DNA of 64,000 nucleotides. It comes from Sipunculus nudus. Lineage: Eukaryota > Annelida > Sipuncula > Golfingiida > Sipunculidae. Numbering within the stretch: position 1 is the stretch's first letter; each line of letters starts with the position of its first letter. The notes under the pieces are model-generated. The model did no database searches. It saw only the letters and a list, made by a program, of their open reading frames with translations, and had not been told where the DNA came from. Shown here piece by piece: positions 31,934 through 55,367 of this stretch. Both the position numbers and the translations under genes were made by a program. Location of the stretch: the NCBI GenBank assembly GCA_026874595.1, contig CM049307.1, positions 30,357,079-30,421,078 on the forward strand. The letters are read 5' to 3'.

Positions 31934-34900
31934 CTAATCCAGGTCATTCAGGGCTTGTGTGAACCGAACCAGATCAGTCAACTTCGTAAATATTTCTCCT
32001 TTCATTTGACTGTAGAAGAAGTCTGGTGCCTGAAAAAAAATGATAAAAAATGTAACATTTACTCGGTTATCAATTACGTTATGCCTTAATTAAAAGCCAT
32101 CTATAATACAAGGTAATGTGAATACAAAATTATTTTTAGACTGCGGGACAGGACTGAGGTCTTAAAATATAGGTGCAATGGTTTGACAATGAGCTATATG
32201 AAAATGAACTAAATAATTTCATAAATATCTTGTAAAGAACGTCTATTCTAAGCTATATTTCCACAAAGATTTATCATTAAAGTAGTACAATCTTAATTTT
32301 TTTTACATTAGTAAGATTGTACTACATTAATGATTAATGACTAAAAAATGTTTAACCCATTGTTCAAAATAATAAATTATTTTCAAAATGGCATGCATAT
32401 TTTATCTATTTATGCATTCTTGGTGAGTACGTCTTGCTGAATGTGTTTCGTGTACGTCAATGGCCTTTAGGAAAGTGGACTGTCATCAGTATAGTGGCCG
32501 TTTTGGAAGAACTTTTGACGAAAGTGACGAAGCTGCATTTTGTGACTTAAAGAATTCATTTTCTCATGATTTTCTCGTTTTAATCCGACCATTTCTTAAC
32601 TTGTTTGTAAAAATGGCGGATTTGGTAATATCAATCTTTACACAATTAGCCTTAGAGTTTAGTTACCTCTGGATATTGAGCTTCATAATTGATGCCAGTA
32701 ATAATAAAATTATTATAATAATTAATAATGTGTCCTGTCACCGTTTGAGATGCGGCCTTTAGAGACTAGCGTTGGAGGTAGGTTATTTTCACAAGTACTT
32801 CAGTAGTTTTACCATAAGTAATCTAAGACCTGACTACTACATTTTAATAGGTAATAGCAGTTTAGCAAGTTTGGGGTAGATATCAGGATTTTAGTAGGTT
32901 TTAGATTAGGTACCAGTGTAGTGTTTTAAGGCACCAGTCCAGAAGAACGGAGACGAGGTCGCTAATGGCAGCTGAGAAGGGCAAATTCTGAGGCAACACT
33001 GGTCGTTTTTGAGCGTTCGAGACGGTTTTGTAGCTGATTGGTGTGCGAGTTGACTGCTGTGAGGCAGCGGTTTGACCGTCTCGGTTGTTTCTTTCCCTTC
33101 CTCAAGCAAAACTCCCCCCCCCCCCCCCCCCCCCGGCCTAATTTCTGACGCTTGGGTTATCGACCAGCCAGGATTAAAAATCGGGCCTGTATCCCCGGGA
33201 AAGCGTAATACATGCTTGGGAAGCCGGTAAAACACGGTACATTGGCGCCTGATCGTGAGGCTAGGCTGAATGTTCTGGCTGAGTCTGCATGACAGCTTGT
33301 GAGAGGCAGGAACAAGCCGGCTAGTCTAGGTGATATCACACTTGGTTGGCTGTTGTATCCCACAGCAATTGGGGAGATTCCCAATTAATTGAATAATTGA
33401 CAGTAAATTAATTGCCAGGTGAGTAACAAGATATAACTTGTCAGCAGTTGGACAAAATTGCATTGTTTTCAACTGTGTTAATATTTAACAGGCGAAAAAG
33501 CCATACGGGCTGATGTTGTGATAAACAAAACCACAGCCTCAGTCTGAGACTCAGAGTGAGGTAGCGTGTATTGTTAAAGATCTTGTGATGGAGCAGAAAA
33601 TTATCCGTAAATTACATTTAATTTTATTTTTGTGAGTTAATTAACTGTCAGCAATAATACTTTATGTTGACACTAAAGTGTTAAATCATTGATTACACTG
33701 TGATTGGTAATGATCTGGTTAGGGTGTCTGTAAGTTGTAATAGGGGAGACTTTTCCCGCGACCTGAGGTACACACACTAAATAGCATAATCCGGTTCATT
33801 TTGTTGTATTTCGTTACAATTTTGGCACAATTGTACATACAAATGTACTGATAGTTGTGTATTGTTCTGGAAAATACATATAAATATACATTTGTATAGG
33901 TCGATTACCAGATAGTATATTATATGATAAATTAGAAACCTTGTGAGAACACAGTGTATATAGTTGAGGATGACAAGGCAAAGTGAACAGTGGTTAGATT
34001 GGGTGACACCTGGTGAGCGTGATGAGCACTAACCCCTTGTAGAACCTAAGTCGTACCCAACTACCGATTAGACAGGATTTGGACGTGAAGCCCGACAAAC
34101 CTATTTTTGATGGATGGGCTATCGGCTGGACAGGGTATAAACCTGCTTCTTGAGGGAACAGGCAACACCAGCAGCAAGAACGGTGCACGAGAGCTCCGTG
34201 CCATCAATACAAATGATGCCATTATCGCCAGACTCAGCATATGGGAGACCCCCATCAAGAAACAAAAAGAACCAGATAAGTTTGATGGCGACCGAATAGA
34301 ATGGGCAGATTTCGGGATTCATTTCGAAAGTGAACGGCTGGACGGAAGCCGAAAAAGCCCTGCAGCTCGCTACATGTTTAAGGGGTAAAGAAGGGGTAAA
34401 ACATAGAGATAACCCTTGGATGACACCGCAAATCCATAGCATTATAAAGCTCAGAGACAGATTACACAGATGCGCTGTAAAACACAAATCTCACATTCTC
34501 TTCTTTAAGTATAGAAGAATTAGAAACATGGTAACTACGCTTATAAGATCGACGAAAACTGCTTATTTCAGACATAACATCGATAATAACTATAATAATA
34601 TCAAAGGTATGTGGAGCGCTCTTAAAAAAGTATTACCTGGTTCCTCATCAGCTAAACCTGGAGATTGCGATATATCATGTGAAGAGTTTAATGAGTATTT
34701 CAGTACCATAGGTGATATATTAGCGGTAAATTTTAAGGCATCCGAAACCCGCCCAGTTCGGTCGTTGAATACTACAGAGTCCCGTTTCAAATTTTCTATA
34801 TTACTATCGCAGGATATACAGAAAGATTTACTTGCACTTCCACCTAAACACACTCTGGATATAATCGATATGGACATCACATTACTCCAAATGGCTTCGC

Positions 34901-37900
34901 AGCTCATTAGTCCTATGTTATGGTATCTATTTAATCTATCACTATATAACGCCACGTACCCGCTTGACTGGAAAACAGCTCGAATTACTCCAGTATATAA
35001 AGGAAAAGGCGATAAAGCAAATAAGAGTAATTACAGACCCATATCAATAATACCTCACATTGCGAAACTATTTGAAAAAGCTGTACAAAGGCAACTAATC
35101 AGGTTTATCATAAATAGCAATAATATTTCAGAAAGTCAGCACGCATATCTGCCTGGAAAATCTACTGTAACGGCTCTTGGTAAATTTTCAAATGACGTAT
35201 ATAAAACTATGGATCAGGGTAAAGTAACTGCTGCTTGTTTTTTCGACCTAACCAAAGGATTTGATACCATAAATCATAAAAGATTATTGGAAAAGTTGTT
35301 CGTTTTTGGTTTTGATAAGAAAACAGTTGCCTGGTTTCAATCTTACCTCCATGATCGCCTACAGATCGTAAAATACAATAACAATCTATCAAATGCTGCT
35401 GTTGTTAATGTAGGTGTTCCTCAGGGTACGGTTCTCGGCCCAATTCTATTTTTGATATATATAAATGATCTTCCAAATGTGCTAAATACTGATGGTATTG
35501 TAATGTACGCTGATGATGTCACTGTATATTGCCATGGTAAAAATGTTGTAGAAGCTGAGATTAAATTACAGCGAGTAGTAAATCAAGTGACCACCTGGTA
35601 CGACGAAAACCTGCTTACTCTGAATTATAATAAATCTAATGTTATGCTACTTGGAAATCTTCATAGAATTGCTGATCACAAACTCAAGATATCAATATTA
35701 GATACAACATTACTTTGTTCTAATAAGATTAATCTACTTGGCGTTATAATAGATGCTAATTTATCCTGGAAACCACATGTTCACTCTCTATCCGAAAAAC
35801 TATCTCAAAAGATAGGAGTTCTTTACCGAATATCAAGCTATCTGTCTATGCAATCTCTTACTAAGGTTTATGCAACTATAATTCAGCCTCATATTGACTA
35901 TGCCCTAAGCATTTGGGGTTGTTCATTATTGTCTACCAATGATACGGTACAGAAAATACAAAACAGAGCTGCCCGCATTATATCCAAAAACTATGACAGA
36001 AATGTTGATTCTATAACCATAGTAAATGAACTGGGTTGGTTGAATATACGTCAACGCTATATGTATTCTGTTGCAGTACTTATGTATAAATGTGTTTGTT
36101 CAATAGCTCCTGGTTTACAAGAGAATAATTTTCACTTTGTCAATGAAGCTCACAATCATCAAACCCGAGCTGCTGTGAGCAATGATTTAGTCGTTCCTAA
36201 ACCTAGAACAAACTATCTGAAAAAAATCTTTACTATATATGGGGCCAAAAATATGGAATAGTTTATCAAATGAATCTAAGTCAGCCATAACTTGTGCATC
36301 TTTTAAGAGACGACTCAAATTGGAAATTTTAGCAACTGTATGTTCTATATGACACGTTATATTTGCATAAATTTGCGTTTTATACATGTAACACTCATTC
36401 TTCTATCATTTCATAGATCATACAATAACTGTAAATTAATTTCATACGTATTTAACTGAATCTAACAATGATCAAGTCCATAAATGCTAGAGATTATTGT
36501 AATATTATTGGTTCGTATGCCTCGCATATTTGCATGTATATATATACTGATCTAATGTGATATTTTAGTTTACTCTTTCTGTCTATAGATGTATATATTG
36601 ATATACTTTCTTAACTCTCTTTATATGCTTTTATGATTTGAGTCCATATGTTCATGTTTATATTTAGTCATGGTATTATTTTATGCATTGTATTGATAGT
36701 TTAGTCATTGTATGTTTTATATGTACTGATACAGGGCACCAAGTAAGACCAGTTTAATTTAAACTGATTGGTTTTCCCTGTATAAACATAATGTAAAACA
36801 TAAAACATAAAGAAAAATGGATACTTAGTGAAGTATCTGCTTAGAAACGACATGGTTACTCGACCCTGAAGGATGCCTTTTGCTAACTGGTTCGGTCCAC
36901 CGTGAAAAGAGAGCGCATTCCGGGCGATGTTCCGCGAGCGATAGAGAAGCGCAAAAAGGAAACCTTAAAGGATACGGATGTGAGGTCTCTCGTCTTTCCC
37001 AGAGGGCATACCCAAGTTTTGGCAGAGACGCCTTAGAATTAATAGCCAGAGACTAGTTTGTTAGAGGGTCGAGCGATATTAAGATGAAGAAACATGTAGA
37101 TCCCAGTTGTCGATCCAGTCTGTTGCAAGCTGGTAGCCTCACAACCTAATATGAGTCATTTGAGGAAGGTGAAATTGTCCGGCCAGGTCGCAAGTTCCGA
37201 CCAAGGTCAGCTCCGGTAGATGTCCTGGGTACGCGAACTGATGAAAAGATAACATAGCTTCAAGAGCAAGACAAAAGAGCAAAATGACACCGCTCAAGCA
37301 AGAGATGACAGGCTTGCACCTAGAAAGAATAACTTTGGATGTCGTGTGACCCCTGTTGAAGTCGCGATCCGGGATCAGTACATTTTGGTGATAGGTGACT
37401 GCTTCACCAAGTGGACAGGGGCCTATGCACCTAACTTATCATACGGCAAAGACTGTCGCTTGGGTAGTCGTGGATTAGTGGATCTGTAGGCTAGGAGTGC
37501 CTCGGGTCATCCACACTGATCAGGGGAAAGACTTCGAAAGCTATTTCTTCAAAGAGATGTGCCGTCTGCTAGACATCCAGAAAACAAAGACGACACCCTA
37601 TCACCCGCAGTCTGATGGGATGATAGAGAGATTTAACCGAACGGTGGCACAGATGCTTGCAGCTTTCGTGAGAGAGAAGAAGCGCGAATTGGACGAGTAT
37701 CTGCCATACTTGACACTGGCTTACCGGAGTACAATACATGAGAGCACTGGTGTCACGCCGAACCTATTGACATCATAGCTGGACATTCCCCTGTCCATGT
37801 ATCCAAATGTTCAGTAGCATCCACCGAGTGGTTGCGTGATGCCCTGGCTTCTGCATTTGCTTATGCTAGGAGGCACCAGCACAAGCAGCCAACCGACGAA

Positions 37901-40900
37901 AAACAGCAGTACGATCGTCAGGCTACTGAACAAGGTTTCACCGAAGGAGACTGGGTCTACTGGTTTTACCCGCCCGCCGCACACGACAAGTTCGGTTCTG
38001 GATGGGTATGTCCCTAAAGGAAAGTCCAGCGAGTGATTGATTTGCTGTACAAAATCCAGTTGTCAGCTAGGTCGAAGCCGAAAGTGTTCCATGTGGATCA
38101 ATTGAGAATGTATCAACAAGGGAACGACGGAGACGATCCTTGGTATAAGCACATATCAAACTACGACCAAGTGGTGCTAGAACCAGAGATGAGTGGAGAT
38201 GAATCCAACCTGAGCTCGGAGTCGGTTGATGAATACAGTGGTAGAGAGACTCCCATTTGTGCTATTGAGGTCGACGTTAGAGATACAGGAAAGGAGGCAG
38301 GACGAGTTGTGCGTGCACACCAAGCTTAGTTGTTTCTTTTTGCTTGTTGTTTAATCTAGATATATGCTTAAATACTTTATTGATGTCGCCCTCGAACCAA
38401 CTGCATGAACCTGTTTCTTTGGAAGGGTAGTTAGTTACTTATTGATGTTAATCTGTTTGTCATTTTTGGTAATTTTAATGCTTTTGTTCAGCTGGCAGCT
38501 GAAAAAGGCGAATTCTGAGGGAACGCTGGTTGTTTTGGATCTTCGAGACGGTGCTATAGCTAATTGGTCTGCTAGTTTACTGCTGGGAGGTAGCGGCGAC
38601 AGACTGAGAACCCTCTGTAAGTTGTGTTTTAAACTTATTGTTACCATTGACCGTCTCGGTTGTTTCTCTCTCTCTCTCAAACAAATCTCTCTTCTCCCCC
38701 CCCCCCCAATTTATGACGCTTGGGTTTTCGCCCAGCAACCGTTAAATATCGGGGCCTGTAACCACGGGAAATTGTAATACCGGCTTGGAAACCGGTAAAA
38801 TACATACAGGCTTGTAGGATTATGGTAGGATTACTCCGTCAGATAATCACTTCATGTTAACTTCATTTGATGAAAACAGAATTAAAGTCTATAAAGGAGA
38901 ATAACAATAATGAACCTTCAGTCCTAATATCTAGAAAAACTAAGATGAAAGGAAGAAATTTGTTAAATTGGGCCATTCCATTTGCGAATATATGTATTAA
39001 AAACATTAAAGTGCACATTACATTTGCCGTAAGCTTACTTAGTGCAATGTTAAGTTTATATCTGTCAAGTAGTCATCAAACAGGAATGAATGTCTAAACT
39101 ATATCATATCATAGGTGACGCTCTAAAAAGTGATAAATGAAGGGCAATAAGCTTTGTCAAAATTAATTCAGTATGATATCAGAGTAATCATACGGTTGGA
39201 ATTAATTTACGATTTTCGAGAGGTTTTTGCCAAAAATAAAACCTTTGTATTTCTGAGCAGCTCTGTTTTATTTCTGATCAACATGCCGGCACAGGTTTAT
39301 TGGAATCAATTCATTTGCGCTGACGTATGACTTGCCTTATCTCGCATATCCTTTACCCCCAACAAAATCGTCCCATCATAATCTTCAAAGTGATCCTTAT
39401 ATCTGGAACCCAAAAGGAAATGGCAATTCATCTAACATCCTTACAAAATCCATTTGCTATATTTTTCATTTATGAAATAAATTTTTGGCTCAGCTGATGG
39501 GGCTGGTCTTTTTCTCAATCAACCCGTGTGGTGGTTGCAAAAATTCGTCGAAACCATTATAGCTAGAATGTGTTTAGGTTTAGGACCAGACAGGTCGAAA
39601 CATTTGATCATCTCGTAAAACCAATTTGATGTCACATTCTTGCAAACTACAGGGTTTTGGAAATATCAAAGACATACGTACTCCTGTTACAGTTCAAACT
39701 TGATTTAGCATAATTTTAGTGTTTGATCATGAATTATAAAATTTAGATAAATGAAATAATTATCCCTTGTTCAAACATACTCCTATGATTATGCATAAAT
39801 TGAGTAAATAGATCCAACCAGATCTAATAAAAAGAACAGTTGTTCAATTTAACTATTCATGGCCGATTCTGACTACCTAATTTCTGGTTCTCAAAGATGA
39901 CCTGCATCTTGATCTTGGACTGCTGTATAAGTTGCAGAAGATAATAGAATCATCTACAGTTTGTTTTACGCTAAAGTAATTGTATATTTAAGAAGTATTT
40001 GTGTGGATATTAATGTTCTCTTTTACCTCGTTACATTAAAGTGCTTACTCGTCAAGGCCATGTGTGCTTAACCAGTTCTTTATGTCAGCCGCTTTCCAAG
40101 AGGCGGCATTGGGTTTCACCTGCTTTGACGGCTTGGCACTCAAATGACTTCCAGTTTGCGCTTGTATTGGGCCTTAAAGAATAAAAAAAAATTAAAAAAA
40201 AAAAAAAAAAAAAAAACACTGAGGCAATTAACGAATTCATATCAATGAAAGCATGTAAAGTGTGAAAGCTAAATATCTTGAGGTATATTGAGTAAAGGAA
40301 ACAGTTCCTGATATTCTGATACGGTTGAGAGATCTTTGATGACTTTGCTTTGGTGTTCAAGCACTAGGGATCTATACCATTTGTATGTGTGTGAAGCACA
40401 TTGCGTCATTCAAGTCTGTTGCAAGTCTGTTCATATTAATACAATGTAAATATTTACCATCTAGAGTATCCGCGTCTGGCGTAATAATGTTATTCAGCTC
40501 CTTTTTCAAATCCTGACAGGAGACGTCTAACATAGTTATGCCGAAACACCGAATGTAGAGTTTGACCCCGACGATCAGGCCCAGCCAGCCGTCAGGTTTA
40601 TAATTGCGCTGCACCATCAACGGGATAATTGGGATGCGACAGTTGTATGCGTACTCTGCCTCTAGAGTAACATAAGAATATATAAACCGAAAGGATTTCA
40701 AGGTTTAATAACAATTTGGGAGAGAGTGAGAGACGACAGTGATGAAACACGAGTAGTTTGAAATAGTTGATGCACACGTGGACACGTGCGTAAGATTATT
40801 ATTACTATAACTTCAGAAACTGTTACTTCAGAATAAATTACAAAATAGATAAATACTTATGTACTTAATGTAGGTTAATAATGTTTTTGTTTCAAGTATG

Positions 40901-42074: not shown

Positions 42075-42119
<45 letters not shown>

Positions 42120-42470
42120 ACTGGAATAGAATACACAGAAAAGTCGGTTCACTCCCATCGGCAGTGAACCGACTTTTCTGTGGCATGGCTAATCTTAATA
42201 TTATATAGCGAAGGTTAAGATAAACAGTGACGCCTTTTAGATAGATTAACTAGTTTATTAACACATGAGCTTTTGAAGTACACAGACTTCTTCGTCAGGT
42301 GGTAATTGAGTGGGAACGTGTAGAGAGATGTTATATGATGGAACGACAATGTATAGAGTCCATAGTGATGTCTGTTCGCTCGTGTGTTAATAAACTAGTT
42401 AGTCTATCTAAAAGGCGTCCCGGTTTATCTTAACCTTCGCTTCAACTATAGACTAACACGGCTGTACCAA

Positions 42471-42536
<66 letters not shown>

Positions 42537-45500
42537 TATCCCGACTTTGATTACCCTTTTTCATGGGGGGGGGGGCGTAAAGGAGCGCCCCCCCCCCTCC
42601 TTTATTCTGCTATCACTTATGTCAGTCAACTACTGGCAGTTGTTATGTTTGTAAACTCACAATTATTTTATGTATTATAAACTACATCGCAAAGCTATCG
42701 GTGAAGTTGTATTTTCTGATACAATGACCAGAAGTGTTATGTCTTCCTGTCTTTCAGTTTGAGCACTAACGACAAGCGACATATGTTTCTATCTGTGGTA
42801 TCTTTGTTTTTAATTCTATCTTTGGTCGGAAAAATTCATCTGAGATAAATTGATAATCCATCTACCTTCTAACCAACCGCTCGTTAACAAGACATATTTC
42901 ATAAACTTAACGTGAGGATGGACACGTCTAATTGTCTCTCAAACAGAGGAGGTATAATATCACATTGGAAACCTAAAAGAAAGACTTTCTGACCTTATTT
43001 TCTAGCTATGAGAAGAAAATTTACTCTTCCCAATGAACACAATTGTAACAAATAACATTTGCCAATGGCTTTCACCTCTTTTTCTGGATATTTTCTATTT
43101 TATTATTTTAGTGAATTATGCAATTAAAATCGTGGTGACTCGTGTAAAATTAAGCTGAGCGTCATGGCGTTATATGTTTTAAGGATTTTATCACACGTTT
43201 TCACAATACGTTTTGATTTTGTGAACGTTTATACGAAATTATCATCGGACCAATATTTCATTGTGATGGCATTTCGTAAAAATAAATAAACATTGAACAA
43301 AAAGACGAATTCTTTATTGTTAACTGACAGAGAGTATCTCTTCTGGCATGCAAACTTCTACGGATACACGTGTCCAAAGTTTGAGGGTTTAAGAGAACGT
43401 GTGAGCTCCTTTAGAACCATACAGAGCGTGCCCAAGAGATGGCCCATTAATCAACCAACTTGACGTCATATCTTCCTTACTCCTACGTTGTCATGTTCAA
43501 AAAGGTTGAAGGGATTTAAATAAGATACTAAGTCAGGTTGTCAGAAGGCTAAGCAAGGATGAACACTATTAGCGTCAAGGACATGCAGTATTAAGTATTC
43601 ACTGGCACATCCATAAACATCCTACAACAGGATAATGTAGTTCTGTAATAGTCTCTCACTACTGTATGACTTAATATTCGCTTTCATTCAGAGGTGAATT
43701 ATATATATTTTTACTTAAAGTACACAATCACTTCATATAAACACCAAACGGACAGAGCTGATACAAAAATTTGATTTAAACAATTCAAAATGATTTAAAT
43801 CAATCGAGAAATGTGATCGTTTTGTTCCTATTGTTATTTATTTCTCATTCAATATTTTACTTTGGAGTGCTCTGAAAAAAAAAAGAAATTTTGTGTGAAA
43901 CGCACGAGACCGTTTCTTCTCTTTTTGTCTAAGTGAAATAAACAGGACATACTGCCTTTTTCTGGGTCCTGAAATGTACAGTGGAATCGTATATATATAT
44001 ATATATCGCTAACAAGCAGAAAAGAGGGAAAGCCCTCGCCAACGAATTCGATGCTGCCCCCCCCCCCCCCCTATCTTCAAATCCTGGATACGCCACTGCC
44101 TCCCACGCGAGTCATATCCCCCAACTCCCACTCCCACCCTTGAGGATAAATTGACGCCTCAGAGGTATAACATGGTTTTTCCTGAAATTTTGCATGTCCA
44201 AAGATGAGAAGTGTCTAACGCCATTCCCCCTCCCAAAATTGATAATGGCGGATACACAGCTGTCGCATGCCCCCCCCCCTTTCCAGGTAGTGTACTTTTG
44301 TAGTGTTATTACACTTACCAGACTGGCAGGCCGGACTCAACTTGTAATATTCTGACACACAAACTATAACTACCGCAGCATTCTCCACAGCTGAAGCCAT
44401 GGCTTCTATAGTACTGCCAGCCATGTTGTCCCGGTCAATCCAAAGCTTATAGCTGTCAGCCTAGTTCAGAAATTAATACTTCTCTTACAGGAACGAATCA
44501 GTATTATATAGGTAAACACTTTCGTCAAAAAGTATTTGTTTTGGGTTATTATCAGTGAATGATAGTTTAATGAACGTTTATAAAGCTGAATGATCGCAAT
44601 ATTTATTATCTCAGATATTCAAATGTTGAATCAATGTTTCATCTGACCACTTACCACATTATCAAGCCCATGTTTAAAGTGTTTTGTTTCGCATAAATTG
44701 GGACTCAAAATACTGCGTTATTGTCATTATGAAGAAGATTAGGCAGTGTTCTCGATACCAAATTACCCCATTTTTTTTCGGCCACATTAACAGCCTTTTC
44801 CAGCCTTAAAGTAAAGCCTTCTAGTTTTAAATATAACACTGCAGTCTAAAGTTCCAATATACCTAACTGGTTGTTTAAATAACGTAATTTTAATAATAAA
44901 CCATTGATGTATAGATATTTTAATTGCGACCGCCATATTGAATTTTAATAGAGCTTCATTACTTTTACTGTATTGTTCTATGATCAAAATTTGGTTAAAA
45001 CATTTGAAGGAACACTGATTAAAAAAAAGAAAAAAGTAATTATGTAATTTTTCCAGTATAATTCAAGTTCAGGTGAAATTTACATGTATAATTGACATAA
45101 TTAAATACATATTTATATTCCTTAATCCTGTCGACAACACTTTACCTCAAATGATCATGGTAGTTAACTGATATTTTAGTCATTATCTTCACGCTTAAAA
45201 ATAGAATACAAAAAGCCTTCAAAGACCGGCACTAAAATCGCAATCAGTGGATACAAGCTTCTCGCAAACAATATCAAGCGAAGGACTAACCTGTAGTCTG
45301 TCTGCAATCCGATGAACTATCTCTTTATGTTTGTGGTTATAGCTGATGAAAACGTGCTTCTTCCTTGAATCTCTGGTTGTTTCTATTACATCAAAAGCAT
45401 GCATTGCATTTGAAGTTTAAGTTGCACTTTAAACAGTTCAAAATGTTTAATAATATTAGTCACATTCAGGCGCATATTTAAGAAGGCAATATATTCGCAT

Positions 45501-48500
45501 ATTTTATTCAGTTTTAAATTAACATCATCTCTTGCGCCCTGGAACGCTTTGGGTGACGATCAGTGGCATTTTAAAGGGAAAGAGTGGAAGCATTTTTAGC
45601 TCAGCAGACTGTAAGTCATCTGAGTTATAGCGATCACCCTTTGTGCGTCTTCCGTCCGGCCCGCCGGCCGTTAACAGGGCACAACCGTTAGACCCAGAAA
45701 ATTCTAACTGTACATCATGGGAGGTCCAAGGCAATTCCTGGGCAAATGTCCGTGGAAACATGCAATTAGGTCACTGTGACCTTAATTCTGCGAGCTATAG
45801 GAAAAATACGTCATTTAAGCACCCTGAATGTCAAATGGGTCAAAATCGTCTAGAATCTTCTAACGCAACACCCAGAGAGATTCAGGTAAAATCTCCTTGA
45901 AAAGCTGAAATTAGGTCACCATGACCTATATTATGCGAGATATAGGAAAAATACGTCAAATTAGCACCCTGAATGTCAAATGAGCAAAAATCGTCTCTGT
46001 AAGGCCTAGAATTTTCCAACGTAACATCAACTGAGGTTATTACCAAATCGCCTTGGAAACATGAAATTAGGGCTCGGTGGCCAATGTTTTGTAAGTTAGT
46101 CCGAAACATGATTTTTAGCATCCAGACAGTCAGACGGGGAACAAAGTGCATCCATTTTCCAATCTTCAATCATCCAATTTTCTAATATTTCATCCAGTTA
46201 AGTCATAGTGACCTATATTCTATGAGCTACTGGCAAACAACATGATTTTGAGCAACCAGACAGCCACACAGGGCACAAACTTAACTGTTGGACCTAGAAC
46301 TTTTTTTATTGTAAATTCAAGGGAGGACCTAAGCATGTCTTGAAAATAGGTCACTATGATGTAAGTTTTGAGAGCTAGAGGGGAAAACATGATTTTAGTA
46401 CAGTGAAAGTCAGATTGGCACAAATCAAAATGGATGGACCTAGAACCTTCTCACTGAATATTAGAGGAGGTTTTGGTTTCAGCATCCTATTACTCAGACG
46501 GGCACAACGGTAGCAGTTGCATCTAGAAACTTCTGATTTCATTAAGAGCCAGGGAGACCCCCGTAAAATCGTCTTAGAACCTTATATAAGGGCAGTGAGT
46601 GTCAGATCCTGTATGTATTTAGCACCAGATCCGTAAGATGGGCACAAATCGTAGCCGTTGGACCTAGAACTTTTTTTATTGTAAATTCAAGGGAGGACCT
46701 TGGCATGTCTTGAAAATAGGTCACTATGATGTAAGTTTTGAGAGCTAGAGGGGAAAACATGATTTTAGTACAGTGAAAGTCAGATTGGCACAAATCAAAA
46801 TGGATGGACCTAGAACCTTCTCACTGAATATTAGAGGAGGTTTTGGTTTCAGCATCCTATTACTCAGACGGGCACAACGGTAGCAGCTGCATCTAGAAAC
46901 TTCTGATTTCATTAAGAGCCAGGGAGACCCCCGTAAAATCGTCTTAGAACCTTATATAAGGGCAGTGAGTGTCAGATCCTGTATGTATTTAGCACCAGAT
47001 CCGTAAGATGGGCACAAATCGTAGCCGTTGGACATTGAACTTAGCATCAAGGTAAAATCTTCTTGCTAACCCTAAAGAAGGTCAAGGTAACCTTTTCATA
47101 ATGCCAATGTACGAAACGCTTGATTTTTAGTATTCTGGAAGTCATTTTATCTATAGTCCAAGGTTCCTTAACAATATTTTTCACCAGATCATAATATTAA
47201 TAAATTATTTCATGCATCACCTGTTTCTCAAATTCAGCTGGGCGTCATGGCCCATAGGTCACCTTTTTTATGTGATACAGGTTGTAGAAAGTGATGTTGA
47301 AACTTACAACACTATACAATATGTGTGAAGTTGAGGTTCCTGAAATGTGAAAAAGCAGATTTTCCTTCACCTTTGATTTTCTCTGCTTTTCTCTCTCCTT
47401 TCCCCTGGATTTTCCACAAGGCCCCGGCCGCCATTTTCTGGACTTCCTTTTGATCAGATTCGGCCAGAGCCTCGAGCGCCGGGATACAGCCTTCTTCATC
47501 TTTTAGCTTCTGTCTTGCCTCCATACCAAATGACAGAGTCCAGCAGCATTTGGCAGCCATTTTCTGCTCCTCAACAATATCACCTTTCATCATGGTTACT
47601 AGACTCGGCAGAACCCCTGCTTGAATGATCTGTAATTATGAGACATTATAATAACTTGTGTTACTTAGTATCTAAGAATGTTCCCCGTTGTCAGTTTAAG
47701 TGCATAGGAGCCAGTACTTAATGCGAGCGTTACCTCTGTCACTTTTAAACTCGTAGATAGAACTAAAGTTTTAAGCACGTTTAAAATTTTCTTCTGGTTA
47801 TTGTAATACGATATGGATTTAAAAGAATTTTGACATATAATGTAAATAATCAGATTAAAAAAAATAATATGGTTGAATATTTTCGTATAATATACATAGT
47901 TGTAACTGGATATGTGGTCGTAACTTAGATAGAGGAATTGAGAAATACCTTCATTTTGTTCCTGTCATTTACAGCAAGATTAGCCAGGCCCTCAGTCATT
48001 TCCACAGAGCTGAATAGATAATACCCACGGCGGTCTTCACTCATAATTGCCTTTTTTAAACTTTTGCTCAAGAAAACAAAGCAACCTGCAAATACCAATT
48101 AACATAATTGAAACCACACCCTTGTGTTTCAACAACAACAAAAAACATGTCAGTACATTACTGCAAACTGTTCACATTATAGCTATACTAACCTGCTTCC
48201 TCGAGAATTTCATTTTCATTTTCATCAATAATGTTTGCCAAAGTGAATGCCGCTACCCCTTGTAGCAAAACATGGTTTGATGACAGAAATGGTTTCACCA
48301 ACTGGAATAAGATGAAAAATGGCATAAAAATGTTACATATAGTCCAGTGGATAAGTTGAAAGTGCAATATACATAAGCACACACCAGTGATGACTGACAG
48401 CACCAGATGTTTCAAAACCAAAACCAAGATCGGGTCTCGTACCAGTTATAACGTTCATGCAGCTAATTATAAAATATATAAAAATAACAATGTCTTTATT

Positions 48501-51500
48501 TTTAATCAAAAGAAGCAAAAGTCATACCAGAGTTGCGAACGCATTCCTCGTTTAACTCTGCAACAGCAATCCCAAACCAACGCCATTTCTTACTTAACAT
48601 CGATTTAAATTTTAAAAAAAAATCGAGCCCTTCAAGCCCTTTAAAAATCCTACATCATGTCTGATCAATTCGCATAAAGTTTGAAAACAGTTTTGGCTTT
48701 TAGATTAGGCTTTGAATATTATGCTGAGAAAAATCTTGAATATGTTTTTTTTTACACAATGACTACCTCTGGTCTCAACTCCAAGCCGAGACTAATATCT
48801 GTAAAACTGTTTAGAATATATACCGACACATGCAGTGTATATAGGAAAACTGTATCTGCATCTCACGCATACATAGAAGGTAAACGCCCTTGACTTCAAA
48901 CTTAATGAATTTACCTACCTCAATAGCATTTTCTTTCCTATATATATTCTTGACTTCTGGTACTTTGGAGATATTGAACAGAATAGTTAGGGGCACATCT
49001 AACAAATCTGCAGTTTCCTACAAGGAAGCAACATAGTTTACAAAGGCAGCCTGAAAGTTATTTTCAGTAACAAAATAACATTAATGGTCCTGCATTCACG
49101 TATTTATGAAGGAGTATTACTCGTCCGTCTCTCCTTCTCTCTCTCTCTTGCATTTATATGAATTATAATGTATTTAAAGGTTTGTTCCATCAAAGGTAAC
49201 TTTCCATCTTGTATCGATAAATCATCCCGCACATACTAAAATGGTTTTAATGATAGTGGTATATTCTTGATACTACTGGGCCAACCTTCAACGATCTGTT
49301 GTTGTAACAGCTGAAGTGTTTGGTCTCTAGCTACTGCATGTTGTAATTCAGCCAGTTTTATCGGCGTTATGTCCAGGATTTCATGTATTGACATCTCCAT
49401 TCTAGGTATGTCCTCTTGGTCTACAGGAATCATCTATTTTACCTGGTCTGCATTCTCAACTGATGCACGATTTTCTAGTTTTGTGTCACTTGATATGTAA
49501 GTAGGGGTTTTCTCCTCTGCAATATTTTACAACTGGCACTAAATTTTACTCGTTACTCGCTTTCTGTCTGATGGTGCAGGTGGTTTGACAGATAAATCAG
49601 ACTATGTGAGTCACTGGTATCTACTACAGTGGCTTCCTGCTTAGTCTCTACAGAGCAATGAAGTGTAATTAAATTGAGTGCTCTGCTGGTTCTCGGATCT
49701 AGTATAATAGGACCAATTGTTTCAGTAACAAAGAAGGATCATGCGAATTTCAAGTTTCAGTAGCTACACACACTTTTCCTAAGTTCTTTATTTGAGATCC
49801 GCCATATGCTGAAAGAATAGCATCTGATTTCTCTATAACACCTGGTTTGGGGTTACCTTCAAGATCAAGTTTCTCAGGCTAAAGCTTCTTGTAATATGAG
49901 ATTGGCATGAAATTACCTGCGGCGCCAGTATCTAACTTGCACTTAATATCAATTATTTTGCGCTGACTCAATTTATGAACCTGTAATGTTGCATATAGCT
50001 GTTGTCTAGGATCATTATTGTCATTTTTCCCTACCGACACAGAGTCAAATGATACGTGTTGAAGATTACAGGTTCCTTTACTGGAGGATTGACGGGCTCG
50101 GGGGGCAACTTTAAATAGCAATGTTCAACATAATATATTTTCATATTAAAATGATTTCATTTATCATATTAACTTCTCCAAAACATATTCCGGCCAATTT
50201 CTTTGCTTCAATCAGATTTTTATGCATAACACCATACATATAATGGATCTATATATTTATTGCCTAACACGATTTGTGTGATTTTCCATATATCCTCTGA
50301 TACCACAGCACCGATTGTCCTGATTTTCGACATACATATGGTTCGGGTTTGTCCTAAGACATTTCACCATTCGTACCGGAACGTATTCGTCCAAGTCATC
50401 CAGACCCAGACACAAGGTCAACTCAAAGACAGAACACTTACATGAGAGACTATTTGACATCAGAACTAACTGCTCGCCCAAACCCGTGTATAGCACGTGT
50501 ATTTGCTAGTTTAAAGTATTTTGCAGACTTTGTATTTGATGACGTGTAGCTTCATGAGCACGGATAATAGTAATTGCTTCCTTAAATTTGAGTTTTTCGT
50601 CACTACCTATCAATAGTTTCTGGACCTCACTAGTGTTGTAGCCCCATATTAGCTGATCAAGCATACGATCTTCCACTCCGGTCTGATCACGAAATTTACA
50701 TTTAACAGCTATTGTTTTGAGCTCTTTAACAAATATCTCAACTGGCAAGGCCCCTCGCTTCCTGTTCATTAGCTGGTATCTGAACAGTCTATGTGTAGTG
50801 ACTGGCTCGAAATGTTTCTGGAATTTATTCAATACAACATATGGGTCTCTAGATTGTTCCATATTATCCAAGATGAAAGTCATCACCTTCAACTCCCACC
50901 ATATCAGGATGTAACTCTGTCTTTCAGGTCAACGGTTTTGTAGTAACTTTTAAATAAATGTTCACATCGGCGCCTGAAATTTGTAAATGCTGCAGCTTTA
51001 TCAGCGTTATCCCTACTCTTATTAAATGATAGGTCGCATTTTGCTCCCACTTTATTCCCGCTCCATTTACCTCATATAACTTTCAGACTATTTTATCTTA
51101 GCCATGTCTGCGTTTCCAGAAAAACGCATACCAGCCCAGGGAGGAGTGTCAATTTGGACCCGGTCAACTTCAGCCGGCTGTTACAACAACTTAGATTCAA
51201 ATATTAAAATAATATTTATGAACTTTTACTTTTGGTATAATAAAATAGGAAAATATTTTGTAGAATGTTAATTTACTGCGGTCATTTCTCTTATAACAGC
51301 ATACCGTATTTGATAACTGTTTAACTGTCAATGAATGAACCAATCAGAGGCCTGTACCGAATGAGTTTATTCTCTACGGGACTATAGAATCGTCTGCAAC
51401 CATGGCGGGTGAGCAATGGGTGTTCTGTCAGCTCAGAAAACAGTTTTAAAACTGCAGTATTTATTCCCGGTCAAAATATTATTGCAGCTTTTAGCGGCAG

Positions 51501-54500
51501 ATAGGAACAAAAGAACACAAGTTGAAATATTTATACGGTTTACTATGTGTATTCCAGCTGAACAGCGAAAGTAATGGCTTGAAACACCAAATCACCGCAT
51601 GCAATAATACTATGTACTTTCCGTACTTCCGTTCCTTCGGAATGGACTTCGTGGATTCTCTGTTTACATCTGAATTGACATTGTTTTGGGCCAAATATCA
51701 GCCACAAATAACGATTCAAGCGACTGTGTATAAAGTCAATGTTCACTTCAGGCAAGCTCAGAGTCAGTTCTATAAACGGTCCCCGTGTTATAAAACTCCT
51801 GCCACCATGTTAAAAACGTGACACCCTGGTTTAATGAACAGTTTATTACCAAGTACAAGCTGCACGTATGCTCCCCTTCTCACATCATGGCTGGATATCA
51901 TTCTCCACACGAGACCTGTCTATGATGTTCAAGGATAGATCCCATGCACACATTCGTGCGCACTGCAAGCTTTCAAGACGATATCGAGCCATGTCGCCCG
52001 AGAAGTGTAACTTGCAAAAATTAAGTTAATGGTGTAAATACAGAGTAAGCTTCGACAACATTCCAAATATAACCAACAAAAGGTATTTGGCCATGAAACA
52101 TATTTTTTATATTGAATAACCTGTGGATTTATTTTGTGGTGTAATATCGCGGTATTGTTCATAGAAACAGAAGCTCATGCACGTGCTTCCTTGGATTGTT
52201 TACGTTATACAACTGTTCCAGAAATGTTGAAGATGTAAATGCACGGTGATAGTGCAGTAACACTTGTTGTTGTTTTAAAGAATATGCAAAGAATAACCTG
52301 CATGAACTGGGTGGATTAACCATTATTGCATGCTGACATAAGACATGGTACCAAGGGATCGAGAGCCACATGTTGTTTACATTTACTCATCCTACAAATG
52401 AGACGGTGACTGGGTCAATGTCAGGTCAAACATTCTTGAAGTCCGTAACTGCCAGCAGGGATTATTCATTCGGTACAATAGACCTTATCTCTGCGCGGAG
52501 GTTGGGCTGGATAATCTATATCAGGGAATCAGCAAAATATCATGCCTGCACGATATTGTTAGCTCTGCCGTTACTTGCTGTCATCTAGCGGCCACTTTGT
52601 ATACTAATATACTCAGTTCGCGGAATGTTTGCACGTACAAACTACTATATATCGGCGCCTTTGAGCTGTAATTCGGCTCTTCAAAACCTATCCACCTCTC
52701 GTCAAAACATGACCTACATGGATGCTGACAAGGGCTTTGCAGCACCCACGCCTGACATCAAAGCCATAAGTGAACCTCAATCTCCTAGTACTTAAAGAAA
52801 CACATTAAAAATAATTAAAAATACGCATTGATTCCAAAGTGTCAGCATTGTGACATCGGATCAATTCGTTCATTTTTTTTCGTACTCACCTGATCACAGA
52901 TGTGCGGCTGGTCTTTCAAATATGGCAGTAGAAGTTTTATCAGTCCCGCTTCACCAACCAGCTGATAAAATTAAGAAAAGAAATAATAAAATACATAAAC
53001 ACTTTAAAACTGTTTTTGAAAATTTGAATCTAAAGATTTTGAATTTTCATGTCGATCTCGAACTTGATCATGAGTTCTTTCGAGATTATTATTTACATAC
53101 ACAGATGGTATAACTACCTTTTACATGCGGTTAATAAGAAAGACAAAACATTCTTGTACCAATACATATGTTTGGTTAATGCCTAACATATGGTGTGTAT
53201 TTCCCACAGATACCCGTGTTCTATAATATTAACAATATTGAAACTCCTTTCATCTTTCCATGCTTAAAATTATCCAATTTATCATGGCTCCGATTTTAAC
53301 TCGATGTGATACATAAAAATGCCTTATTTCATTGATTGATGATGTCAGTTGCCCACAATGTGACAAATTTTATTGGCAGACCTTTGCCTCAAGTTACGTT
53401 CGAATATAATGATTTATATCCCCCGATTTTTTTTTTATTTTTTAAATGTGGTCAATGAAATGGCTTTGAATCCTTACAACTATAAGGCAAGATTTAGGAC
53501 AGACTGATTTATAAGAAAGGAGGATGTCCTCTCTAATATTACTCACCGTTTCAAATACTTTTCCATAGCCTCAAGTTGTTATTCATAATTATTAGCAGCT
53601 CAGCTAACTGTAAGTCAAGTAAACTATAGGGATGTTTTTTTTTCGGTCGTTTGTTATGCCGTACGTCCGTCTGTTAACAGGGCACAAATCACTGGGCCGA
53701 GAGATTTCAAGCCTAAAATTCTAGGTCTTCTGTTGAAACCCAAAAGTACATCAGTGTGACCTATGTTCCAGGAGTTATGGTGCGAAAACGCTGGATGATT
53801 GTCATAAAATCCAAAATGTTACTTGATCTTGAAGAACCTTAACTGCTGCTGATGAGTGGTGACACTGCCGACAATATTTCTATTGTACGATTTGTACTTG
53901 TATTTGAGCATGACAGATCAAAACCATCACCCGAAAGCTGAGCTCAAATCTCAAATGTAAACCAAGAGAAGTTCAAAATTCACATGCTGTATATCCTTAT
54001 ATTTCTTCTATGGAATCTAAAATTGCCTCACTGTGACCAATATTCTCTGAATAACAGAACAAAAACGTGTTTCAGCATCTCATAACTAAGACTCCAGACT
54101 CCCGTCTGTACAAATTTGTAAAAATAGGCCAGGTTTTTCAGAAACGGCTGAATCCTGAATACCTACAGATCTTGTCAAACACAATTTTACAAACGTTTAC
54201 TTTTATTTTTGAAGATGACAGATTACAGCCATCGGTCGAAACTTCAATGAGGCAAAAATTTTTAAACTTAAAGCCCTGGAAGTTTTAAGTCCACATTCTG
54301 ACAGGTGCTTCGTGAAAATGCAAAAGTAGAGTACTGTACTCTACATTATGTGAGTCATACAGCGGAAACACGTTCCTGCACCTCAAAAACTGATATTCGT
54401 GCCACATTTCATAGGAACATCTGATTGGATTGATATGAATATGAATTGTGTTACCGGACTGGAAGTTAAAAGTACTGTCGTTTTTGCACGGTCACGCCAC

Positions 54501-55367
54501 CGCCGCTCAAAATCCATCCGAGTGAGAAAATTAAAAGATATTTTAAAAAACTGCTTCAAACCTAACATGTGCATAAACAGGAAGTAAGATGACTAACCTA
54601 TATTTAAATGGGGTCGTGACCTTTTCTAAGGGAGTGACCTTTACTTCTTCCATAATAGAGAGTCAGAAAAAAATATTATTTATCTGAAGAAAGGCTAAAT
54701 TGTTGAGTAAATCGTAATTCCCAAAGACCTAGGATAACTATGTCTTTTATTTCCTTTGTTTTAATACCAAATCAATGCCACTTGACACATTCCTTTTTTA
54801 TTGTGCACAAGCAAATTTATGGATCATAGGATGAAGCTTATTTCGATTGGGGTGACGGTCGTGACGTATGCTATCTGAGTGATTTTGGCATTGATAATTC
54901 AAAATTTGGTGGAACAACATAAAAAATTGTTTCTCCAGAAATCGTTGGATGGGTTGTTCTGTAACTGAGTAATTACAGATCACAGATAGAAAGGTGTCAT
55001 ATTCTAAAACAGGTGACCTTGACCTTCCAGGCCAAATATTCAGGATCAGTGGAATTGAGTGAAAGTTTTCTCGTTAAGTACTTCAATGAGTTTTACAACT
55101 TCGACACCTTTTTGGCACCTCAGTCCACGGATACGTCTGAAAACTTGATTTTCAAGGACAAATCTGTAGAGATACAGGAGTTGAAAGAACTTTAAAATTT
55201 TTAAGATATTTTTATTCAACTTTGACACAAGTTTTATTTTAATCAAGTTCTATAATCCATATATACCTTTGAAAATTCCAAGGAGACGTCGGAGAAATTA
55301 CACGCTAGAACGTAGACATCGTTGTGGAAATCACGTTGAATGAATTCCATCATTTTCACCAAATAAT
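31934..55367 (-). CDS. ARM-TIR-SAM protein, putative TIR-domain NADase (5' incomplete)
   Basis: Exons, 5' to 3': 55367-55267, 52961-52890, 49017-48919, 48301-48193, 48085-47949, 47629-47371, 45382-45291, 44460-44319, 40661-40458, 40172-40049, 39402-39357, 32029-31934; all phases agree, about 492 aa visible. Armadillo repeats come first (FSDVSLEFSK, EAGLIKLLLPYL, GVAAFTLANII, MTEGLANLAVNDRNKMK, QKMAAKCCWTLSFG, KMAAGALWKI). The TIR domain follows: KKHVFISYNHKHKEIV (strand A), LWIDRDNMAGST (BB loop), AAVVIVCVSEYYKLSPACQS, EAEYAYN, then PIIPLMVQRNYKPDGWLG. The first Glu of EAEYA sits where NAD+-cleaving TIRs have their catalytic Glu. The SAM domain ends the protein: SWKAADIKNWLSTHGLDE, HFEDYDGTILL, APDFFYSQMKGEIFTKL, RFTQALNDLD. 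Inference: a cytosolic NADase or immune adaptor. Family order resembles lophotrochozoan ARM-TIR-SAM proteins rather than SARM1. One short SAM exon and the N-terminus are probably missing from this model. Confidence 0.85.
32967..33241 (+). repeat. 5' LTR (recognisable part)
   Basis: Shares with the 3' copy GGCAGCTGARAARGGC, ATTCTGAGG, GAGACGGT, GACCGTCTCGGTTGTTTC, a C run, TATGACGCTTGGGTTWTCG (diverged at the start) and RAARCCGGTAAAA. It ends in TACA directly before the primer-binding site. The upstream (U3) boundary could not be fixed and may extend left of 32967. Confidence 0.75.
33242..33259 (+). other. Putative tRNA primer-binding site of the gypsy element
   Basis: TTGGCGCCTGATCGTGAG follows the ...GGTACA LTR end. 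A TGGCGCC start is typical of gypsy primer-binding sites complementary to a tRNA 3' end. The exact tRNA was not determined. Confidence 0.6.
34095..34386 (+). pseudogene. Gypsy gag remnant, interrupted by the LINE
   Basis: KEPDKFDGDRIEWADFGIHFE in one frame, then after a frameshift VNGWTEAEKALQLATCLRG, together match the conserved gag signature of Ty3/gypsy elements (F-G-W...F, NGW..EEKA..L...LRG). The gag reading is cut off at 34386 by LINE sequence. Confidence 0.7.
34387..36352 (+). pseudogene. LINE reverse transcriptase ORF with one frameshift
   Basis: The open frame 34330-36261 is 643 codons, but its first 19 codons are gypsy gag fused in frame. RT blocks in order: WKTARITPVYKGKGDK, SNYRPISIIPHIAKLFEK, AYLPGKSTVTAL, AACFFDLTKGFDTINHKRLL (motif A Asp, about residue 303), NVGVPQGTVLGPILF (motif B), IVMYADDVTVY (motif C, YADD near residue 393), then LLGVIIDANLSW and IWGCSLLS. 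Near 36241 a run of four G where three are expected shifts the frame. Reading on gives GPKIWNSLS and FKRRLKLEIL, the usual LINE C-terminus, to a stop at 36350-36352. No endonuclease domain. Confidence 0.85.
34387..36820 (+). mobile_element. 5'-truncated non-LTR retrotransposon (CR1/Jockey-type LINE)
   Basis: LINE sequence starts right after the gag LRG codon, with the NPWMTPQI linker that normally follows the endonuclease, so the endonuclease is missing. It ends in an AAAACATAAAACATAAAGAAAAA-type simple tail near 36795-36820. TAAAGAA occurs at both junctions (34387 and about 36813) and may be a short target duplication. Only one reading-frame break was seen, so it is much younger than the host gypsy. 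Confidence 0.75.
36821..38329 (+). pseudogene. Gypsy integrase and C-terminal pol remnant
   Basis: After frameshifts the integrase core reads RDQYILVIGDCFTKWTGAY (first Asp, about 37370), VPRVIHTDQGKDFE (second Asp, 37497 on), then TPYHPQSDGMIERFNRTVAQ (Glu) and LAYRSTIHESTGVTPN. The downstream GPY-type region has DWVYWF and SKPKVFHVDQLRMYQ. A stop at 37776 and shifts near 37470 and 38017 break it, so it is inactive. Pieces near 36900-37150 may be the zinc-binding H2C2 part, too decayed to call. Confidence 0.8.
38494..38808 (+). repeat. 3' LTR (recognisable part)
   Basis: Collinear with 32967-33241 but carries an extra segment of about 50 nt (near 38597-38645) before GACCGTCTCGG. It has a CTCTCTCTC stretch and shorter C run, and ends near TACA at 38801-38808. 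Confidence 0.7.
40185..40218. repeat. A-rich homopolymer tract
   Basis: Nearly pure A run of about 30 nt immediately upstream (in gene orientation) of the first SAM exon of the ARM-TIR-SAM gene; on the transcribed strand it is a long T run ahead of the CTTTAAG acceptor. Confidence 0.9.
42072..42118. repeat. (AT)n microsatellite
   Basis: Pure TA dinucleotides in the intron between the second and third TIR exons, just left of the perfect hairpin at 42134. Confidence 0.95.
42134..42182. repeat. Perfect 20-bp inverted repeat with 9-nt loop
   Basis: Arms CACAGAAAAGTCGGTTCACT (42134-42153) and AGTGAACCGACTTTTCTGTG (42163-42182) are exact reverse complements around CCCATCGGC. It lies between an AT microsatellite and the Penelope-like inverted repeat. 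Function unknown. Confidence 0.9.
42208..42472. mobile_element. Penelope-like element remnant with 63-nt inverted arms
   Basis: Arms 42208-42270 (GCGAAGGTTAAGATAAACAG...) and 42378-42440 (...TTTATCTTAACCTTCGC) are near-perfect reverse complements, with a spacer of about 107 nt. On the minus strand the left arm neighbourhood contains CACCTGACGAAGAAGTCTGT followed by a complementary ACTTC. The right flank holds ACTATAGACTAACACGGCTG. Both are signatures recalled from termini of Penelope-like retroelements, which carry hammerhead-ribozyme-like segments. No protein-coding part is present. Confidence 0.55.
42473..42533. repeat. (AT)n microsatellite
   Basis: About 60 nt of TA dinucleotides abutting the ACACGGCTGTACCAATTA end of the Penelope-like remnant; such elements often end in or insert into AT repeats. 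Confidence 0.95.
42534..44318. other. Intron of the ARM-TIR-SAM gene, nothing else recognised
   Basis: AT-rich with G and C runs near 42566-42576, 42588-42598 and 44057-44071 and a hAT-like end motif (GGATACGCCACTG) near 44086. No exon seen. Confidence 0.4.
45590..47240. repeat. Long dispersed repeat of AGCTCA/CGTCCG type with internal subrepeats
   Basis: Starts TTTTTAGCTCAGCAGACTGTAAGTC, then TTATAGCGATCACCC and CTTCCGTCCGGCCCGCC. It continues as subunits that repeat GGGCACAA...GTTAGACCTAGAA, then AAACATGAAATTAGGTCA..TGACCTATA and TATGCGAG.TATAGG. It ends GTCAAGGTAACC and CAAATTCAGCTGGGCGTCATGG. Related copies occur at 53596-54320, 57180-57760 and inside 61930-62960. Fills most of the intron between the last ARM exon (47371) and the first TIR exon (45382). 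Confidence 0.7.
46291..47030. repeat. Near-identical 370-bp tandem duplication
   Basis: GACCTAGAACTTTTTTTATT begins at 46291 and again at 46661, and the following GACATTGAAC marks the third boundary at 47031, giving two exact 370-nt periods. The copies differ at only a few bases (e.g. GGTAGCAGTTGC versus GGTAGCAGCTGC), so the duplication is recent or a homogenised allele. Confidence 0.95.
49239..51110 (-). pseudogene. Ty3/gypsy gag-protease remnant (K02A2.6-like)
   Basis: On the minus strand: a gag piece (FTNFRRRCEHLFKSYY near 50980, then DNMEQSRDPYVVLNKFQKHF and CKFRDQTGVEDRMLDQLIWG, 50892-50506). An aspartic protease piece follows with CKLDTGAAGNFMPISYYKKL (DTGA active site, about 49879-49940) and NPKPGVIEKSDAILSAYGGS after a stop. 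Last comes the linker that normally lies between RNase H and integrase (KLAELQHAVARDQTLQLL, 49433-49239). Reverse transcriptase and RNase H are deleted and frames are broken. It lies in an ARM intron, same strand as the gene. Confidence 0.8.
51111..52889. other. Intron sequence, possible 5' part of the gypsy remnant
   Basis: Minus strand ...TTTTTAACA then TGGTGGCAGGAG at about 51808-51795 looks like an LTR end plus primer-binding site for the gag-protease remnant at 49239-51110, which would put an LTR to the right. The second LTR was not found. No host exon recognised here. Confidence 0.3.
53596..54320. repeat. Second copy of the AGCTCA/CGTCCG repeat family
   Basis: Has CAGCTCAGCTAACTGTAAGTCAAGT, TACGTCCGTCTGTTAACAGG and GGGCACAAATC in the same order as the start of the 45590 copy, then diverged gene-free subunits. 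Sits in the intron between exons 55267 and 52961. Confidence 0.6.

Follow-up and report, generated by a model that had tools for sequence, protein, structure and literature searches.

The nerve-degeneration enzyme SARM1 is an NAD+ hydrolase of ARM-SAM-SAM-TIR architecture, the TIR domain of which carries a conserved Glu. Its N-terminal ARM domain is followed by tandem SAM domains, which form an octameric ring, and by the C-terminal TIR domain; ARM blocks self-association of the TIR domains, and a rise in NMN releases this block (PMC8635717). SARM1 typically occurs as one copy per genome (PMC7075850). In prokaryotes, the CARF-TIR protein Cat1 of type III CRISPR is an NADase, whose site is composed of S7, H8, N9, N10, D33, S68 and E74 of one TIR domain together with K121 and Y122 of the next (PMC12162218).

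Further combinations of these domains have been described in animals and their relatives. For Aplysia, 11 ARM-TIR genes are given in the table and 10 in the text of the same report, in which three genes with TIR and SAM were named SARM (PMC9334734). A TIR-SAM hybrid gene of amphioxus was reported in 2008 along with its cDNA (PMC2575513), choanoflagellates possess Arm-associated TIR proteins (PMC6040629), and SARM-like proteins were reported for corals (PMC10236652). Moreover, two surveys list uncharacterised TIR domains in molluscs and cnidarians, namely group 18 of Toshchakov and Neuwald and clades 10-13 of Culbertson et al. (PMC7075850, PMC13142454).

Here, a locus of Sipunculus nudus is compared with these systems. 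The window, i.e. the whole stretch of DNA that was analysed, comprises 64,000 nucleotides of contig C2 (CM049307.1, positions 30,357,079 to 30,421,078, assembly GCA_026874595.1); other contigs are designated analogously.

Gene structure and paralogues

The gene under study is located on the minus strand, where 12 exons running from 55367 to 31934 join in phase (Table 1). The model was drawn from genomic DNA alone: splice-signal joining connected 11 exons (52961 to 31934) by ten junctions in phase into 466 codons that end at a single terminal stop, and two 5' exons, N1 and N2, were located with the help of a divergently placed paralogue, against which the window and the flank to its right were compared. 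The complete gene is predicted to consist of 13 exons encoding 642 amino acids without an internal stop, and the phase is kept at each of the 11 junctions in the window as well as at the twelfth, which leads to exon N1 outside it. All 12 exons in the window are preceded by AG acceptors, and 10 of the 11 donors are GT, the remaining one being a GC donor after exon S2 in the context AAG/GCAAGT. The codon of the conserved TIR Glu is split by the intron between T2 and T3. On this evidence, the ARM, TIR and SAM exons are very probably parts of one intact gene and not of separate neighbours.

Table 1. Exons of the ARM-TIR-SAM gene and modelled paralogues (window positions unless a contig is named)
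Feature	Position	Strand	Basis	Length and phase, or content
Exon N1, start codon	C2:30424927-30424501 (window-equivalent 67849-67423; 3.4 kb beyond window)	minus	Paralogue comparison	
Exon N2, first in window, start of ARM part	55267..55367	minus	Match to copy 2 exon C2:30445260-30445378	119 nt in copy 2, 101 nt here; phase 1 to N1, 0 to A
Exon A, ARM part	52890..52961	minus	Splice sites	72 nt, also copy 2; 69 nt in copy 5
Exon B, ARM part	48919..49017	minus	Splice sites	99 nt, also copies 2, 5
Exon D, ARM part	48193..48301	minus	Splice sites	109 nt, also copies 2, 5
Exon E, ARM part	47949..48085	minus	Splice sites	137 nt, also copies 2, 3, 5, C4
Exon F, ARM; sole exon with its own Pfam Arm match	47371..47629	minus	Splice sites	259 nt, also copies 4, 5, C4
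Exon T1, TIR start (KKHVFISYNH)	45291..45382	minus	Splice sites, Pfam	92 nt, also copies 4, 5, C4
Exon T2, TIR middle to split codon of conserved Glu	44319..44460	minus	Splice sites, Pfam	142 nt, also copies 2, 5, C4
Exon T3, remaining TIR (EAEYAYNCR...) and linker start	40458..40661	minus	Splice sites, Pfam	204 nt, also copies 2, 5, C4
Exon S1, linker and first SAM part	40049..40172	minus	Splice sites, Pfam	124 nt, also copies 2, 5; 118 nt in C4
Exon S2, SAM middle, then GC donor	39336..39402	minus	Splice sites	67 nt, also copies 2, 3, 5, C4
Exon S3, SAM end and TAG stop	31934..32029	minus	Splice sites	90 nt aligned in copies 2, 3, 5, C4
Copy 2	C2:30443861-30456382		Spliced alignment	ARM, TIR, SAM in order
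Copy 5	C2:30594412-30605097		Spliced alignment	ARM, TIR, SAM in order
C4 gene	C4:87756093-87766770		Spliced alignment from residue 232 (within ARM)	ARM, TIR, SAM in order

Pfam searches of the 466-residue part matched TIR_2 (4e-22, residues 236-339) and Arm (1e-12), while SAM_2 (6e-4) reached 20.4 bits and thereby remained just below its cut-off of 20.5; with the C-terminal 94 residues searched alone, SAM_2 scored 23.5 bits and exceeded it. The SAM_2 match spans the first half of the domain only. The SAM domain is single, C-terminal and located downstream of the TIR domain, from which it is separated by a linker of 32 residues in the window gene, and the tie between ARM and TIR measures about 20 residues by eye. 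The preliminary description of this DNA, which gives no strand, had placed the gene at 31934 to 55367 and the TIR domain at 40458 to 45382, and both ranges agree exactly with the exon model, the latter with the bounds of T1 to T3. The four exons that it had assigned to TIR and linker correspond to T1, T2, T3 and S1, the matching of intron phases that it had noted holds at all 11 junctions in the window, and an internal TIR followed by a terminal SAM, i.e. an order unlike that of SARM1, was confirmed by exon joining and Pfam. The domain search that it had proposed thus recovered Arm, TIR_2 and SAM_2, the last above cut-off for the C-terminal piece alone.

Two candidate segments were rejected in the course of modelling. 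An extra exon guessed within 48480-48720 had no splice-consistent frame that could be seen, and B is spliced straight to D in phase 0; a peptide at about 40200-40370, considered as linker, was discarded, T3 being directly joined to S1.

Several introns contain repeated or mobile sequences. The last intron, S2-S3, is 7.3 kb in length and houses a reverse-transcriptase open frame of 653 residues (34300..36261, plus strand; RVT_1 3.1e-38) as well as an integrase-core fragment (37479..37778, plus strand; rve 2e-4, 22 bits against a curated cut-off of 32.6), both of which lie outside the gene product. In the A-B intron, several open pieces at 49236-50928 on the minus strand resemble a retroelement by eye, with a weak Retrotrans_gag match (0.13) at 50506-50928, and the F-T1 intron between ARM and TIR carries a tandem pair of a 370-bp unit with 97% matches (46271-47042).

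A search of the genome (1.43 Gb, 153 contigs) with the 466-residue model yielded 58 matches among 91 scored candidates, of which 38 are located on C2 and seven on C4. ARM-TIR-SAM models total four on two contigs, namely the window gene (copy 1), copy 2, copy 5 and the C4 gene; together with partial copies in the same genome they substantiate the expansion which the preliminary description had proposed. From exon B onward, the exon lengths of the paralogues are nearly constant (99, 109, 137, 259, 92, 142, 204, 124, 67 and 90 nt), as are the phases, the C4 gene deviating by the lack of exon B, a cut exon D (115 nt) and 118 nt in place of 124. The aligner divided F and T1 of copy 2 into 251+14+86 nt, equal to the sum of the 259+92 nt in copy 5 and C4, and likewise split the first exon of copy 5, both of which are read as artefacts. 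The window protein served as query for these models, so that the exon boundaries of the paralogues are not wholly independent. Splice-aware alignment of the copy 5 protein to the window gave a score of 1375 for the minus strand as against 41 for the plus strand, and each of 20 windows shuffled in six-base blocks scored 39-53, this query itself having been modelled with the window protein.

Two neighbouring copies are partial and were excluded from the count of four: copy 3 comprises ARM and part of the TIR domain, the start of which is altered in the model, with SAM exons about 18 kb further on, and copy 4 comprises ARM and TIR in the stretch read. On C8, a more distant TIR domain of 48% identity is followed by SAM exons in the same phases, the first and last of which are clear and the middle one weak, the query being in part a family consensus. 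Related TIR loci are also present on C7, there with ARM, and on C10, and SAM was seen at neither of them in the stretches read. Inside the C2 cluster, a diverged last SAM exon stands by itself (C2:30545418-30545501) and is perhaps a remnant of another family member.

TIR type and the candidate NADase pocket

A profile of five family TIR domains matched 18 PDB sequences at E<=1, among which Cat1 was best (8e-8) and a plant TIR enzyme (0.015) and MyD88 (0.05) scored more weakly; SARM1 was absent from these 18. The window TIR alone matched two PDB sequences, with Cat1 at 4.1e-5, and the C8 TIR alone matched three, with Cat1 at 6.5e-5; exon T2 by itself had no PDB match. The PADLOC models bSEFIR, SAVED_TIR, Aga_TIR and PDC-S66 matched all five scanned TIR domains at E<=0.1, and NCBIfam returned three weak matches far under cut-off, with ThcB4 (0.005) as the best. 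In a screen for close prokaryotic relatives by means of two TIR peptide patterns, which more distant relatives would escape, none of the 135 pattern-matched GTDB stretches encoded a relative at E<=1e-3.

Seven related TIR domains (copies 1, 2, 5, C4, C8, C7 and C10) were aligned by MAFFT with Cat1, the second-subunit residues K121 and Y122 of which lie outside the alignment. S7, D33, S68 and E74 of Cat1 are identical in all seven, and N9 is kept in all five in which the TIR is followed by SAM exons, the residue being His in C7 and C10. On the other hand, H8 is replaced by Tyr and N10 by His or Trp throughout, and the Trp located four residues ahead of the Glu in Cat1, the plant TIR and TLRs has become A, P, N or S in all seven family members. 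Of eight TLR loci of Sipunculus nudus given as controls, five TIR domains were aligned, three loci having been missed by the pattern; all five keep S7, S68 and E74, with Ser at N9 and, at the alignment-dependent position D33, His. Hence, the conserved Glu alone is not diagnostic of an NADase, because these TLR domains retain it together with S7 and S68. The plant TIR keeps S7, D33, S68 and E74, and MyD88 is devoid of S7, N9 and E74 and by MAFFT retains only S68 of the Cat1 pocket positions, D33 again depending on the alignment in such controls (in MyD88, Ser by MAFFT and Asp by HMMER). An NADase-type pocket in the window TIR is indirectly supported.

With regard to the overall TIR content of the genome, 150 of 150 scored among 322 candidates match TIR_2, i.e. 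there are at least 150. Thirteen matches are clustered at C12:21783393-22058932, seven of which lie within open frames 693-737 residues long, and one reads by eye as an intronless LRR-TM-TIR receptor. Five matches of identical score at C9:23324811-23369601, spaced by 10.4-11.4 kb, are probably a recent tandem array.

The chief alternative to enzymatic function, tenable though less likely than not, is that of a scaffold or adaptor, in which ARM and SAM would recruit partners and the TIR domain would join TLR/MyD88-type signalling without NAD+ cleavage. The abundance of TIR_2 domains, one of them in a presumed LRR-TIR receptor, is in line with such a role, as are the appearance of MyD88 among the weaker profile matches, the listing of Aplysia ARM-TIR proteins as signalling adaptors (PMC9334734) and the loss of the Trp ahead of the Glu in the entire set of seven. 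However, S7, N9 and E74, which MyD88 has lost, are kept in the family (N9 in five of seven), TLR domains lack N9 and, in the MAFFT alignment, D33, and the best relative of the family TIR is itself an NADase.

The preferred reading, which in our judgement could fall either way, is that the window protein constitutes a TIR NADase of innate immunity which is controlled by ARM and assembled through SAM, and which belongs to a family with a cluster on C2. In such a mechanism, the C-terminal SAM domain together with TIR-TIR contacts would gather subunits, and paired neighbouring TIR domains would complete composite NAD+-cleaving sites, as in Cat1 and SARM1. The N-terminal ARM solenoid would keep the TIR domains apart until a ligand or partner is sensed, and the outcome in cells that are infected or damaged would be a loss of NAD+ or a signal derived from NAD. 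By analogy, each module may claim a precedent, because the ARM domain of SARM1 blocks TIR self-association inside the SAM ring (PMC8635717). Since a SAM domain beyond the TIR would leave ARM unjoined to the SAM core, the inhibited geometry should differ from that of the SARM1 ring. We infer a cytosolic location, catalysis, oligomerisation, autoinhibition and an immune role of the window protein. Such an NADase machine is opposed by the altered H8, N10 and Trp positions, by the half-match of SAM_2 and by the TIR loci on C7 and C10 that are devoid of SAM in the stretches read. Moreover, a SAM domain may bind a partner SAM instead.

Relation to SARM1

The window protein resembles SARM1 in that an N-terminal ARM domain is combined with SAM and TIR and the TIR Glu is conserved, and its SAM domain could, like that of SARM1, oligomerise. 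In contrast to SARM1, its TIR domain is internal and followed by one SAM domain, whereas the tandem SAM domains of SARM1 precede a C-terminal TIR; the TIR of SARM1 (group 24 / clade 8) is moreover absent from the 18 PDB sequences matched by the family profile at E<=1, and the family comprises several copies, while SARM1 is typically single-copy.

The window SAM piece matched 21 PDB sequences at E<=10, the best of which was SAM1 of SARM1 (7.6e-4 over 72 residues). A SAM profile of five members (copies 1, 2, 3, 5 and C4) matched 28 PDB sequences at E<=1, headed by liprin-beta-1 (0.0012) and caskin-2 (0.013), with SARM1 behind them (0.019). Because of this ranking, the SAM identity is regarded as real but not as specifically that of SARM1. 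The ARM part matched Vac8, designed armadillo proteins, importin alpha and beta-catenin, and SARM1 was absent, among the 60 matches listed of 135. A SARM1-type SAM1 exon is located elsewhere in the genome (C7:38409553-38409684), where it shares 61% identity with the SARM1 SAM1 stretch over 44 residues; in the 5 kb next to it, no further SARM1 exons were seen by eye.

The window protein is therefore best regarded as SARM1-like in parts and not as a SARM1 orthologue, given that its SAM domain is single and last, that its TIR domain, by the 18 PDB matches, does not appear to be of SARM1 type and that a SARM1-type SAM1 exon resides on C7. Judged from sequence, it looks like an independent assembly of similar parts. 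A permuted SARM1, as suggested by the comparison in the preliminary description, is opposed by the single SAM domain and by the lack of SARM1 among the 18 TIR matches and the listed ARM matches. Derivation from a SARM1 orthologue by rearrangement of its domains within the lineage appears highly improbable: the identity of the three domain types and the first rank of SARM1 SAM1 among the 21 matches of the window SAM piece speak for it, but they are countered by the TIR and ARM searches, by the precedence of liprin-beta-1 and caskin-2 in the SAM profile, and by the separate SAM1 exon on C7. Within C4:55424478-55452797, a SAM match (27% to the SARM1 SAM1 stretch, in a frame of 432 residues) precedes by 28 kb a TIR match of identical strand, and the two may belong to a SAM-then-TIR gene.

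As a tentative and more far-reaching proposal, the family could represent a second, independently assembled animal machine of SARM1-like kind, composed of an ARM sensor, a middle TIR NADase resembling Cat1 and thus bacterial defence, and a terminal SAM domain as assembler. Its members would be tandem-expanded immune NADases, in which the relocated SAM domain would entail a different oligomer and a different hold by ARM.

Selection on the family and its known relatives

Ratios of dN to dS were estimated for copies 1, 2, 5 and C4 in six pairs according to Nei and Gojobori (NG86), and are rough because dS exceeds 1 in many pairs. In all six pairs they amount to 0.15-0.30 for ARM together with the N-terminal region, and to 0.07-0.32 for SAM; the TIR domain gave 0.09-0.16 in the five pairs with computable dS, the sixth being saturated, and the linker (30-32 codons) gave mixed values of 0.17, 0.18, 0.42 and 0.52 in four of the six. 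ARM, TIR and SAM look to be under purifying selection, the SAM domain apparently being selected as part of the protein. A wrong gene model, whereby the exons would belong to separate neighbouring genes or to a pseudogene copy, is hardly credible: despite the long last intron with its mobile elements, the GC donor and the apparent incompleteness of copies 3 and 4 in the stretches read, the order recurs in three paralogue models on two contigs (window protein as query), 642 codons are free of stops, and dN/dS is well below 1, including in SAM.

The three-domain ARM-TIR-SAM order is, on genomic evidence, real and repeated; ARM-TIR and TIR-SAM genes have already been published. The phrase "ARM-TIR-SAM" did not occur in the papers listed by a full-text search of open-licence literature, and databases may nonetheless already contain annotations of such an arrangement. 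Because related genes in the genome repeat this order, it may represent another way in which nature has wired a switch for cell death or immunity. The protein offers the modules of SARM1 in a naturally permuted order and with a different TIR domain, which permits a direct test of which aspects of SARM1 regulation hinge on domain order (ARM block, SAM ring) and which reside in the parts themselves.

Among the described systems, Cat1 is the closest solved TIR by sequence and shares several active-site residues with the window protein, which carries ARM in place of the CARF sensor of this prokaryotic enzyme. The Aplysia ARM-TIR class likewise unites ARM and TIR in one protein, but SAM is not among the domains that the excerpted account requires of that class (PMC9334734). 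ARM-TIR-SAM proteins could nevertheless hide among the Aplysia "SARM" genes, since genes with TIR and SAM were so named there (PMC9334734). The joining of TIR and SAM in the window protein, and also at the C8 locus, recalls the amphioxus hybrid gene, for which, by contrast, ARM is not mentioned in the excerpted report (PMC2575513). Finally, the TIR domains of group 18, with their diverse architectures, and of clades 10-13 are likewise uncharacterised; the gene described here may supply a concrete, intact and multi-copy example behind the uncharacterised mollusc TIR groups of the two surveys.
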